IMG/VR virus record: IMGVR_UViG_3300025671_000476
Coordinates: 1-25,263 of that record
Origin: a virus
Reading direction: 5' to 3' (one strand)
Length of the DNA: 25,263 bases
A program made the translations under genes and the position numbers. This document shows, in pieces, positions 63 to 12,734 of this stretch; the first letter of the stretch is position 1, and each line of letters starts with the position of its first letter. Below the pieces are notes generated by a model that was given only the letters and a program-made list of their open reading frames with translations, was not told the origin of the DNA and made no database searches.

Positions 63-113
63 TTATCGGGCCTTTTAGTTTATAGATAATTCTATGGATA
101 AAGGACCCGATAA
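63..113 (+). promoter_or_regulatory. Nested hairpin enclosing the terS start codon
   Basis: Bases 63-75 pair with 100-113, giving a 13-bp stem with a single bulged A at 105 (core arm TATCGGG, then CCTTT). The loop holds an inner hairpin, ATAGA (82-86) with TCTAT (91-95), so the start codon at 94-96 lies in the inner stem. No Shine-Dalgarno sequence precedes the start. The pairing is seen directly. A role in limiting terS translation, or as a binding site for TerS, is inference. It could also be a chance structure. Confidence 0.55.
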
Positions 114-555
114 TATTATTGATTTTACTAGTGCAGAAAATAAGATTTTATCAGACAAGGAAAAGAAGTTTGTTGAATTCATATTTCAAGGTTTAGGTAA
201 GAAACAAGCGGCTTTGGAAGCCGGTTATGCTCAATCTGCAGCGCACGTTCAAGCGACACGCCTACTAAAGAAAGATAAAATACGCAAGGCCCTTGATCGA
301 TTACGCTCTCTTCAACACCAACAAACAGTTCATACGATGGACAAAGAGATCGAAGCGATTGATGCCATGATCCAAGAAGCTCGAGATAGAGGGCAAATTG
401 GTGCAGCGGTTCAGGCCGCTCGACTCAAGGCACAAATGTTAGGGTACCTTGTTGATAAGAAAGAGATTAAGACAACAAACCTTGACACCATGAGCGAGGA
501 CGACATCGTCAATTACCTTGATTCCCTCAAAGCATCCTACAGCAACACGCAGTAA
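94..555 (+). CDS. terS: Terminase small subunit
   Basis: The 153-residue protein has the features of a phage small terminase of the terminase_2-like type, which recognises phage DNA and hands it to the large subunit for packaging into proheads. Residues about 22-65 carry the usual N-terminal helix-turn-helix: a 'D-K-E-K-K-F-V-E' helix, then 'GLGKKQAALEAGYAQSAAHV' and a basic helix. The central region (about 66-115) is helical and charged, suited to oligomerisation, and the C-terminus (about 120-153) is acidic and polar, as in the portion that contacts the large subunit. The length fits the family. The start at 94 is the only ATG ahead of the domain; it has no Shine-Dalgarno sequence and sits in a hairpin. 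The large subunit is not adjacent: it lies 2.2 kb downstream beyond an island of small genes, which is unusual. The family assignment is from motif recognition only. Confidence 0.82.
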   Translation: MDKGPDNIIDFTSAENKILSDKEKKFVEFIFQGLGKKQAALEAGYAQSAAHVQATRLLKKDKIRKALDRLRSLQHQQTVHTMDKEIEAIDAMIQEARDRGQIGAAVQAARLKAQMLGYLVDKKEIKTTNLDTMSEDDIVNYLDSLKASYSNTQ

Positions 556-561
556 GCGTGG

Positions 562-599
562 TTGATGGTTGTTGATTGTTGACCCTTGACTCTTGATCA
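562..599 (+). repeat. Degenerate heptanucleotide TTGAYNN array, copy 1
   Basis: TTGA occurs at 562, 572, 579, 586 and 593. The last four are exactly seven bases apart (TTGATTG, TTGACCC, TTGACTC, TTGATCA). The 16-base string CCTTGACTCTTGATCA at 584-599 recurs exactly at 1210-1225 in the second array. The array begins seven bases after the terS stop codon. Its function is unknown. Confidence 0.75.
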
Positions 600-603
600 G
601 TAA

Positions 604-688
604 TGTACAACCCGGATCCAGGAGTACGGAGTACGGGATCACGCAACAACATACCAGGATCTTTGTACAAGTCTGTACAACCCGGATC
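604..688 (+). repeat. Direct repeats and iterated GGATC sites between terS and the first small gene
   Basis: TGTACAACCCGGATC is present exactly at 604-618 and 674-688. GGATC occurs four times, at 614, 636, 657 and 684, spaced 22, 21 and 27 bases. A GGAGTAC tandem lies at 621-634. A perfect inverted repeat TTGTACA-agtc-TGTACAA spans 663-680. Iterated sites next to terS would suit a packaging (pac/cos) or regulatory protein site, but that is inference. Confidence 0.6.
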
Positions 689-740
689 AACGAAAAAATT
701 AAATGTCATTATTTATAATAAAGATGTTTACTTCTGTTAA

Positions 741-757
741 TTATTTTAGTAAAATAA
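741..757 (+). promoter_or_regulatory. AT-rich palindrome before the first small gene
   Basis: TTATTTTA-g-TAAAATAA is a perfect 17-base palindrome ending 24 bases before the ATG at 782 and 9 bases before the Shine-Dalgarno sequence AAAGGAG (767-773). The other two small genes of this island have comparable palindromes at their 5' ends. It may be an operator or an RNA hairpin. Confidence 0.45.
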
Positions 758-781
758 AGCAACAATAAAGGAGAAAGAAAA

Positions 782-1141
782 ATGAAAAAAACCGAAACTA
801 AACTACCTAGAACTGTTAATCAAATCGGAAACGATATCTGTCTTTTTAGATTGGTTAACCCGAAACAAGACGGAAGTAAATCGCATGAGATTTACTCAAA
901 AGCACAGAAAGCTACTACGATCAAGGAAGCTTTCGAACAGGGTTACAGAACTATTGATATCGCATACGATAGCATGAGTAATGGGAAGTTTAAGAAACCT
1001 AATGTACTTATCGCAAGATATCTTAAAAAAGACCATAAGGAATTATACTTGACATTCCTTAAGGAATTTGAGGGAGTCAAGCTTTCACCTCAAATGGAAA
1101 AGAATGTGAAGGAATTCACAGCATTAGTTAACAAATTATAA
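782..1141 (+). CDS. Small protein of unknown function, island paralogue A
   Basis: A 119-residue lysine-rich soluble protein that I cannot assign to a named family. Residues about 16-28 read 'GNDICLFRLVNPK', followed by a 'KATTIKEAFEQGYRTIDIAYD' -like stretch (about 42-62, split here by one residue count) and a basic helical C-terminus ending 'VNKL'. The gene at 1581 shares this order: a DN-x-I-x-x-x-RLVN motif, a TTI-x-x-x-x-x-x-G motif, a D-x-x-YD motif and a VNKL end, so the two look like diverged paralogues. It has a good Shine-Dalgarno sequence (AAAGGAG, 8 bases before ATG), a palindrome upstream and a strong terminator 9 bases downstream, so it is probably an independent transcription unit. 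GC is about 34% by hand count, close to the surrounding genes. A nucleic-acid-binding or host-takeover role is possible but unproven. Confidence 0.75.
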   Translation: MKKTETKLPRTVNQIGNDICLFRLVNPKQDGSKSHEIYSKAQKATTIKEAFEQGYRTIDIAYDSMSNGKFKKPNVLIARYLKKDHKELYLTFLKEFEGVKLSPQMEKNVKEFTALVNKL

Positions 1142-1149
1142 TTCGAATT

Positions 1150-1174
1150 GGGGACCTTCGGGTCCCCTTTTTTT
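1150..1174 (+). terminator. Intrinsic terminator after small gene A
   Basis: GGGGACC (1150-1156), loop TTCG, GGTCCCC (1161-1167), then seven T residues (1168-1174). This is a textbook Rho-independent terminator with a stable UUCG tetraloop. Confidence 0.93.
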
Positions 1175-1178
1175 ATTC

Positions 1179-1231
1179 TTGATCGATTGATCCCTGTTGA
1201 TCAGTTGATCCTTGACTCTTGATCATTGACG
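1179..1231 (+). repeat. Degenerate TTGAYNN array, copy 2
   Basis: TTGA occurs at 1179, 1187, 1197, 1205, 1212, 1219 and 1226. The last four are seven bases apart (TTGATCC, TTGACTC, TTGATCA, TTGACGT). Sixteen bases at 1210-1225 are identical to 584-599 in copy 1. As in copy 1, the array directly follows a gene end. Five of the seven units contain GATC. Confidence 0.75.
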
Positions 1232-1313
1232 TTTGTCGTTAGACAAAGTACGTAGTTCGTAGTTTGTCTATAATAAACAATCAATTGCGCTTCGTAAGCA
1301 AAGCTCTGCGCAA
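1232..1313 (+). other. Structured non-coding stretch with mutually exclusive hairpins
   Basis: TTTGTC occurs at 1232-1237 and 1263-1268, and GACAAA lies between them at 1242-1247. The middle element can pair with either neighbour: a 6-bp stem with a 4-base loop, or TAGACAAA (1240-1247) with TTTGTCTA (1263-1270). The second fold also contains an inner TACG/CGTA stem. A further inverted repeat, TTGCGC (1285-1290) with GCGCAA (1308-1313), follows. TATAAT is present at 1269-1274 with no well-spaced -35 box. The structures are seen; an attenuator, small-RNA or promoter function is inference. This is the main gene-poor stretch of the window (1175-1389). Confidence 0.45.
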
Positions 1314-1389
1314 CTCTGATCAACTAAATAATATTATTTGTTTAGAATTGATTTTATTTAAAATATTCTAATTTTAGAAAGGAAAGAAT

Positions 1390-1452
1390 ATGGACTTAAT
1401 ACTGTATATACTACTAATTGCTTTTATAGCTATTACTACTACGCAATTTTAA
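1390..1452 (+). CDS. 20-residue hydrophobic peptide, putative membrane microprotein
   Basis: An ATG at 1390 opens a 20-codon frame ending in TAA at 1450-1452. The peptide is two residues of polar head (M-D), about 13 strongly hydrophobic residues (LILYILLIAFIAI) and a TTTQF tail, so it looks like a single short membrane segment. Support for translation is a Shine-Dalgarno sequence AAAGGA (1378-1383) six bases before ATG, and the palindrome TTCTAA-tt-TTAGAA (1366-1379), which resembles the arrangement at the two flanking small genes. No homologue is known to me and a frame this short can arise by chance, so confidence is moderate. Confidence 0.45.
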   Translation: MDLILYILLIAFIAITTTQF

Positions 1453-1580: not shown

Positions 1581-1970
1581 ATGAATAAAACTAAAGTAGA
1601 AGAAAAAGGAAAAGGAAAACTAAATAAATTTCCTTCTTCTTTAATAAGAATTAAAGATAATTTAATTCTTCATAGATTAGTAAACGATAAAAAAGGAAAA
1701 TCGTTTACTAGATTAGAGAATTATAAATTCTCTACTACTATAGAAAATTCCGTTAAAAACGGAATGAATAAAGACGATTACGATTATAATACTTCTAAAT
1801 TAAAAACTATCTATTCGATAGATTTAAATAATCTAAGAAAAGAAAATAAACTTAGATACTTAGATACTATTAATCTTAATCTTTCATTTCTTAAAGATAG
1901 TAAAATAACTAATAAAGATGAATTATTATCTTTAAATAAGAAAGCGTTAGAAGAAGTAAATAAATTATAA
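1581..1970 (+). CDS. Small lysine- and asparagine-rich protein, island paralogue B
   Basis: A 129-residue protein of unknown function with the same motif order as the protein encoded at 782: 'KDNLILHRLVN' (about 25-35), a 'TTIENSVKNG' segment (about 53-62), 'DDYDYN' (about 65-70), and the C-terminal tetrapeptide VNKL. It is rich in K, N, L, S and D and lacks cysteine, tryptophan and a membrane segment. GC is only about 20% by hand count (69 of 350 bases in 1621-1970), far below gene A and most of the window, and nearly every codon ends in A or T. That suggests a different history or strong compositional drift. It has an AAAGGA Shine-Dalgarno sequence 8 bases from ATG, an inverted repeat upstream and a hairpin terminator 10 bases downstream. 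The leader closely resembles that of gene A. Confidence 0.75.
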   Translation: MNKTKVEEKGKGKLNKFPSSLIRIKDNLILHRLVNDKKGKSFTRLENYKFSTTIENSVKNGMNKDDYDYNTSKLKTIYSIDLNNLRKENKLRYLDTINLNLSFLKDSKITNKDELLSLNKKALEEVNKL

Positions 1971-11986: not shown

Positions 11987-12454
11987 ATGTCAAGTTATAT
12001 AGATCAATTTATTTACGATCCAAATAGAGATACTCAAAGAACATTTGAAGAAGTTCAAGCAGAAATGAAAAGCAATAAAGCTTATTCAACTAAAGAAGAA
12101 GAAGTACTAGATGTAGATTTAGAAAATGAAGAAACTAAAAGTGATGATAAAAAAGTTGATGAAGCATTAGAAAAAGCTGAGAAAAAAACTGATGAAGCAG
12201 TATCTCAATTATCAAAATATGCAGATGCTTACAAAAAAATAGCTTCTTCTTCATCTGCTCAAAAACCAATTACAGGTCAAAATTTAATGGGAACACCTAG
12301 TTCAATGGGAGCATTTGGACCAATGAGTGCAGTACAACAATCTACTAGTCCTTATTTTGCAAGTCAAGGAGTATTATCAACTGCCAAAATGAAAGAACTT
12401 GATTCTAAAATAGCAACATTAAGAAAAATTTTACAAGGAGGTGTCAATGTCTAG
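11987..12454 (+). CDS. Protein of unknown function, acidic coiled coil
   Basis: A 155-residue protein. The N-terminus 'SSYIDQFIYDPNRDTQRTF' is followed by an acidic, helical middle (about 35-80) with a likely coiled coil, and then a Gly/Ser/Met/Gln-rich flexible segment (about 85-125). A final short helix includes 'MKELDSKIATLRKIL'. No family recognised. Its ATG has no Shine-Dalgarno sequence and lies 18 bases beyond a terminator stem, so expression would rely on read-through or a promoter that I cannot identify. The Shine-Dalgarno sequence of the next gene is inside its 3' end. It lies between head and connector genes, so a minor virion role is plausible. Confidence 0.65.
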   Translation: MSSYIDQFIYDPNRDTQRTFEEVQAEMKSNKAYSTKEEEVLDVDLENEETKSDDKKVDEALEKAEKKTDEAVSQLSKYADAYKKIASSSSAQKPITGQNLMGTPSSMGAFGPMSAVQQSTSPYFASQGVLSTAKMKELDSKIATLRKILQGGVNV

Positions 12455-12734
12455 TTCAGATATTTTCGCTAAAAGCACTACGACAACAGGAAGTGATGTT
12501 ACTTTATTTGCTGGCCCAATAAGAATAAAAGGATTTATTGTAACTCCTACAGGCACAGCAGGTACTGTTACTTTTAAAGATGGTAGTACTACACTATTCG
12601 CATTAAGCACGGCAGCATCAGCAGCATCTGGTCCAGTTCAGATTTCATTACCATCTGAAGGTATTAAATGTTCAACTAATGCTACTGTAAATTTAACTGC
12701 AGGTGTATCAGCGATAACAGTATTTATGGCGTAA
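12447..12734 (+). CDS. Small beta-rich structural protein
   Basis: A 95-residue Ser/Thr/Ala/Gly-rich protein. The ATG at 12447 has AAGGAGG (12435-12441) five bases upstream, so I prefer it to the in-frame GTG two codons earlier. The sequence alternates hydrophobic strands ('RIKGFIVTPTGTAGTVTFKD', about 28-47) with a 'VQISLPSEGIKC' strand, as in small beta-sandwich virion proteins. The protein encoded at 16009 has a comparable layout. Its last base overlaps the next start (TAATG). High expression and position suggest a decoration or neck-associated protein. Confidence 0.6.
   Translation: MSSSDIFAKSTTTTGSDVTLFAGPIRIKGFIVTPTGTAGTVTFKDGSTTLFALSTAASAASGPVQISLPSEGIKCSTNATVNLTAGVSAITVFMA

Follow-up and report, generated by a model that had tools for sequence, protein, structure and literature searches.

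The window analyzed here is the whole of a 25,263-base virus fragment, record IMGVR_UViG_3300025671_000476, which comes from a marine phage of ~61 kb whose distant relatives include the SAR11 phages HTVC023P and HTVC027P. Its genes run in a single direction in the order terS, gene A, tiny ORF, gene B, ferredoxin-like gene, terL, portal, and major capsid (features from terS to gene B are listed in Table 1). The best relatives of its TerL belong to pelagiphages, one Pseudanabaena phage, and others, and identity to the nearest isolates is 42.6% for pelagiphage HTVC027P, 43.0% for HTVC023P, and 44.7% for phage 023Pt. The TerS of L167, which is identical to that of the window, matches Pfam PF03592 Terminase_2 (E=2.4e-10). 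Gene A has no PHROG match and no Pfam match above the Pfam cut-off, and a search of bacterial genomes for its relatives found none. Together with gene B and a third gene located ~3 kb upstream of terS (L006 885-1247), it makes up one paralogous family, in which gene B is far more AT-rich. The terminator of gene A is clear; its promoter is a consensus match only, and the consensus scan by itself was not above chance. Most of the relatives with flanks that were read have a short hydrophobic ORF of varying sequence at the position of the tiny ORF, and similar short hydrophobic ORFs occur in the terS-terL interval of HTVC023P. Between gene B and terL, the ferredoxin-like gene (2139-2789) is phrog_3704 and is related to a gene in SAR11 and cyanobacterial myophages; in L004, L017, and L018 a 50-aa ORF stands in its place, so the gene B-terL junction is also variable.

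Table 1. Features of the window from terS to gene B (columns: feature, coordinates, strand, basis or remark).
terS (terminase small subunit), left neighbor of spacer 1	94..555	+	PHROG 51, E=4.6e-12; stop 553-555
Gap 1, terS-gene A spacer, first module copy, with the gene A promoter region at its end	556..781	.	sequence; periodicity over lineages
Heptamer array 1, four TTGAYNN units	572..599	+	degenerate start from ~562
Second heptamer stretch, GGAGTAC x2.3	621..636	+	Tandem Repeats Finder
Decamer stretch, GTAC at 665 and 675, GATC at 685 (exact 10 bp steps)	665..690	+	sequence
Promoter-like site of gene A, TTTACT-17-TAAAAT	727..755	+	similar sites 5' of gene A in relatives
Gene A, small cassette gene, 119 aa	782..1141	+	presence/absence among relatives
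Gap 2, second module copy, past the terminator	1142..1389	.	sequence; words in common with gap 1
Gene A intrinsic terminator	1150..1174	+	1150-1167 plus T run; same place in relatives
Heptamer array 2	1181..1232	+	irregular GATC-containing start; regular four units 1205-1232
Gap 2 decamer pair CTCTGCGCAA CTCTGATCAA	1301..1322	+	sequence; gap 2 period 10 over lineages
Tiny ORF, 20-aa hydrophobic peptide MDLILYILLIAFIAITTTQF, first gene past gap 2	1390..1452	+	sequence
Gene B, diverged paralogue of gene A	1581..1970	+	BLASTP E=2e-06; position conserved

The initial annotation of this DNA described two arrays of four TTGAYNN units with a common 16-base core, and direct reading agrees with it: array 1 is TTGATTG TTGACCC TTGACTC TTGATCA, the regular part of array 2 is TTGATCC TTGACTC TTGATCA TTGACGT, and positions 584-599 and 1210-1225 are both CCTTGACTCTTGATCA, identical over 16 bases. 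The exact four-unit pattern occurs in the record only at 572-599 and 1205-1232, and its reverse does not occur in the record at all. A three-unit pattern with ≤2 mismatches has 12 matches in the window compared to 0.87 expected, and none of 100 dinucleotide shuffles reached this number (maximum of 3), so the enrichment over shuffled sequence by which the annotation proposed to judge the arrays is indeed present. Both arrays were said to follow a gene end directly, which is true of array 1, a few bases past the terS stop, but not of array 2, which follows the gene A intrinsic terminator ~60 bases past the gene A stop. Among the IMG/VR matches listed for the four-unit pattern (L033-L150), most are intergenic arrays of unrelated contigs, often TTGACAA or TTGATAA and sometimes on both strands of one contig, and as mostly unrelated contigs they show only that such arrays are common. 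The two arrays of the window are more than chance, and they are part of a larger feature that had been half seen, as the annotation mentioned neither the 10-bp half nor that the words turn over and change together in both spacers.

The arrays make up the left-hand part of a noncoding module with two components, in which 7-bp repeats are followed by 10-bp repeats carrying GATC, GTAC, or GCGC, and this module is present on both sides of the small gene A, between terS and terL. Besides the decamer stretch in Table 1, gap 1 includes an earlier tetramer pair at 605 and 615. Periodicity was measured as runs of matches at a fixed lag and compared with dinucleotide shuffles. Over 16 lineages, lag 10 and lag 7 yielded z=38 and z=25 in gap 1 and z=18 and z=16 in gap 2, respectively, while 17 further spacers, picked by TerS alone after the first periodicity result, again had 10 (z 14.2) and 7 (z 9.9) as their top two lags. 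Thus, 10 bp is a stronger period of the spacers than 7 bp. In the 16 lineages, the 7-bp signal peaks early, within 70 bases, and that at 10 bp extends further; 10 is also the commonest spacing of GATC/GTAC/GCGC/GATTC sites.

In the gaps of the window and of G001, GATC, GTAC, and GCGC show an enrichment of ~5-7 fold. G001 is a complete circular relative (61,190 bases, 123-base end repeat), and across its genome the arrays are found only in gaps 1 and 2. We scanned large genomes of three clades segment by segment. The top lag-7 segments are gaps 1 and 2 in both G001 and G002, the top lag-7 and lag-10 segments of G010 both lie in these gaps, and the same is true of the top lag-7 segment of G011 and the top lag-10 segments of G012. 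The exceptions are G001 and G011, which have another segment tied for lag 10, and G012, which has its lag-7 peak outside these gaps. The segment richest in GC in G010 and G011, whose genomes have 33% GC, is the spacer after terS, at up to 0.70. Many IMG/VR contigs end in or near the terS-gene A region (L029, L030, L031, L156, L157, L199, L217, L223, L226, and others), an excess that was counted by eye only; the ends do not fall at one base, which makes an assembly broken by strain variation likelier than a physical genome end.

The annotation had proposed a scan of relatives for the arrays, and the arrays do recur in them. A gene A protein search returned 30 loci, none selected for repeats, and nearly all of these have TTGAY words in both gaps. 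A gene A alignment search then reached relatives at 37-48% identity, in which both gaps again have repeated words, but different ones. The words include TTGATTC with GGGATTCAGA (L193, L209, and L218), TTGACTC with GGATCAGNNN (L195-L198), TTGACTTGATTGACTTG (L201, L207, and L210), GTTGAAATTGGCTTG (L204 and L212), TGACGATGATCATGACG (L214 and L219), and ATTGACA (L215). L017 and L018, which are close to the window, have TTGTGGC in both gaps, even though the L017 TerS is 97% identical to that of the window. A TerS alignment search added a clade with the GC-rich words CATCAGC and CGTCCTCCAC, as well as a clade with a homologous TerS in which the spacers are AT-rich and lack arrays. We refer to the latter as the freshwater clade from a reading of its sample numbers rather than from the result of any tool, and its lack of arrays indicates that they are dispensable. 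All told, relatives recovered by protein searches with gene A or TerS, independently of the arrays, have the module at the same place, and these comparisons show that across a wide marine phage family its place and 7/10 architecture are conserved while its words are lineage-specific. The word turnover also disposes of GATC methylation or restriction as the common theme, and with it of the suggested methylation-sensitive GATC sites in that part, because other lineages use GATTC, GTAC/GCGC, GC-rich words, or no GATC word. As a separate matter, CGCG is nearly absent from these genomes (1 vs 45 expected in G001, 0 vs 28 in G002, 0 vs 18 in the window, and 0-2 in G010-G012), a scarcity that suggests escape from host restriction at CGCG; G001 has a C5-cytosine methyltransferase gene (L169 18742-19791).

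The words of the two gaps change in concert. In total, gap 1 and gap 2 of the same genome have 268 7-mers in common, compared to 145.7 (sd 20.5) when gap 1 is paired with gap 2 of other lineages, and 268 was reached in 0 of 20,000 permutations. Most of this signal comes from L017, L193, L201, L204, and L215, in which the top-ranked gap 2 is the genome's own. This is not so in several TTGAY genomes, which is what a word common to close relatives would lead to. Indels of exactly 7 separate near-identical spacers (L014/L015, L027/L028, and L196/L121), such indels are found within more diverged pairs as well, and there are also indels of ~10. This pattern is the mark of unit-wise slippage, and with their unit-length indels among relatives the arrays behave as tandem heptamers.

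Gene A itself is absent from several lineages, which keep a single spacer from terS to the tiny ORF. At least five changes of the gene A state occur on the TerS tree, two of them forced by well-supported branches; L225 lies outside this tree due to a TerS fragment that is too short, and it was counted by context as a further case. The nearest relative of L225 is L210, which is ~85% identical in DNA and has gene A. In the single L225 spacer, the left part matches gap 1 of L201 and the right part matches gap 2, and the switch falls at 78-95, within the decamers, with either of two different parents. The chimera scored 450 vs 431 for a reading as gap 2 only, which is a modest margin. Elsewhere, the junction is near the terS end in L213 and just past the decamers or ambiguous in L296/L297, while L277, L298, L304, and L307 were too diverged for junction placement. 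It should also be noted that L218, compared with L193, has a convergent gene inserted right after the gap 2 decamers. The idea that the arrays are a recombination seam for small genes is supported in that they are sited where small genes turn over, with one clean junction and several others that are consistent with it, but this is not proved as a rule.

The reading we favor, for which we consider the chances evenly balanced, is that the spacers are slippage-born, mutually homogenized sequences around the cassette gene A, and that their homology is the seam for its loss and regain. The heptamers would arise through replication slippage, recombination or copying between the spacers would keep the two copies alike, and the resulting homology would create a seam at which gene A, promoter and terminator included, could be lost or regained. 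The 10-bp half is constant enough to suggest an additional, putative DNA-binding role. Several points weigh against this account. L225 provides the only clean loss junction, the tree does not fix whether gene A was lost or gained, slippage alone does not account for the recurrence of palindromic tetramers at a 10-bp period across so many lineages, and concerted words could also result from a common binding protein rather than from homogenization.

Such a protein is central to the next explanation, which we regard as doubtful but worth serious attention. Here, the modules would be operator or activator arrays by which one phage or host protein co-regulates a gene A unit and a tiny-ORF/gene B unit, and the words would change together because the protein reading them changes. 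This fits with the words common to both gaps, with decamers located upstream of an AT-rich promoter region in each, with a 10-bp spacing that would place the sites on one helix face, and with the retention of one module ahead of the tiny ORF in genomes lacking gene A. In HTVC027P, GCTTGAA heptamers likewise adjoin promoter-like sequence in two terS-terL gaps. However, no candidate regulator was found, the third paralogue upstream of terS has no such array, and the convergent gene of L218 separates gap 2 from the next promoter. We also considered the gene A protein as the array binder and rejected it, as its model is of low confidence (pLDDT 68.5) and has no fold match.

A regulator of two transcription units seems as likely as TerS acting at a pac site. 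In the latter case, which we judge unlikely, a TerS ring would bind phased repeats beside its own gene and would read their spacing or shape more than their bases, leaving the words free to drift. The module lies immediately past terS, its repeats have a 10-bp phasing, and the encoded TerS is a Terminase_2 protein, the family of the SPP1 and SF6 small terminases. Recognition of the heptamer word itself by TerS is improbable because L017 retains 97% of this protein with another word, and that same pairing is compatible with a TerS that reads spacing. There is also precedent in the SPP1 pac, where three sets of direct repeats are found around terS, of which boxA is absent from SF6 and different repeats take its place, and the DNA-binding domain of SF6 TerS binds without base specificity (PMC4737164). 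Conversely, a second module copy lies past gene A, the freshwater clade has a homologous TerS without arrays, and the SPP1 pac overlaps the start of terS rather than its end. Predicted intrinsic curvature was also no higher than in dinucleotide shuffles (mean z -0.2 by a wedge model). Multimeric protein binding had been listed among the possible roles of the arrays, and the 10-bp phasing together with the place beside terS is suggestive of a putative site of this kind. A more general form of the idea, which we hold just as tentatively as the pac site, is a packaging or regulatory element read by its helical spacing. If one subunit occupied each 7- or 10-bp unit, the words would be free to turn over by slippage or recombination, with period, order, and place remaining fixed.

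Still less probable in our estimation is that the spacers are functionless slippage debris, collected where an almost entirely coding genome has one of its rare noncoding stretches. Arrays of heptamers are frequent in the intergenic DNA of many unrelated contigs, heptamers are over-represented in bacteria (PMC4692102, PMC4679880), and both the unit-length indels and the array-free freshwater clade would be expected of such debris, but it leaves unexplained the concerted words of two gaps, the constant placing of 7-bp repeats ahead of 10-bp ones, and the lack of such arrays from that genome's other gaps of 100-380 bases. An RNA element was considered and rejected, since Rfam returned only chance-level matches far below the gathering score; the window's gap 2 does fold well (z -6), but folds and z-scores differ across lineages. 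A replication origin with iterons is very improbable. The tandem repeats do adjoin AT-rich DNA, but the cumulative GC skew near terS has a weak maximum and not a minimum, and the complete relative has its primase and helicase genes far off, with just small genes immediately 5' of terS.

Two unsolved problems meet at this locus, namely how a small terminase ring chooses its genome without base specificity and by what route small cassette genes come into the genomes of lytic phages. With a fixed period, order, and place, changing words, two concerted copies, and natural one-copy genomes, this phage family offers a comparative system for both. Among phages, the terS-terL interval of HTVC023P and HTVC027P is similar in having small genes and long gaps, and the HTVC027P gaps have GCTTGAA/GCTTGCG heptamers. 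Unlike the window, however, they have no 10-bp array of comparable strength, their TerL is only ~43% identical, and the window TerS and gene A are not detectable in either by tblastn. HTVC023P (L231) also has three copies of a ~33-base unit, AAATCTTGAGAATACATACCGAAAATTTTTTGC, at 12372-12566, directly after terS. For a fixed place with free words, the SPP1/SF6 pac is the best precedent, as it likewise has direct repeats adjoining a Terminase_2 terS with a sequence unconserved between relatives, except that the repeats here are located past terS and again past the next gene and are not curved by the wedge model. Gene A resembles phage moron cassettes in that it is small, has a terminator of its own and a candidate promoter, and is missing at the same place from some relatives, close ones included, between conserved neighbors. 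It differs in that both of its flanks are copies of one periodic spacer, providing homology for exchange; classic morons are not known to have such flanking repeats.

The heptamers are reminiscent of bacterial repeats, such as the STRR of Calothrix, the TAACTGA repeats of Beggiatoaceae (PMC4679880), and the GGGAATC repeats of Xanthomonas/Nostoc (PMC4692102), which are similarly noncoding 7-bp tandems that vary in length between close relatives. As in TAACTGA, each unit of the TTGAY lineage includes a TGA, and three units therefore stop all frames. The parallel with cyanobacterial STRR drawn by the annotation holds for the tandem heptamer units in noncoding DNA, but it fails on dispersal, because the arrays of the circular 61 kb G001 are confined to two adjacent gaps, whereas the bacterial repeats occupy tens to hundreds of dispersed sites. 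The phage heptamers are further set apart by a coupled 10-bp array and by a lineage-specific word that is common to both gaps. Phages thus join the organisms with intergenic heptamer repeats, and they show a second, helical period beside the heptamers.
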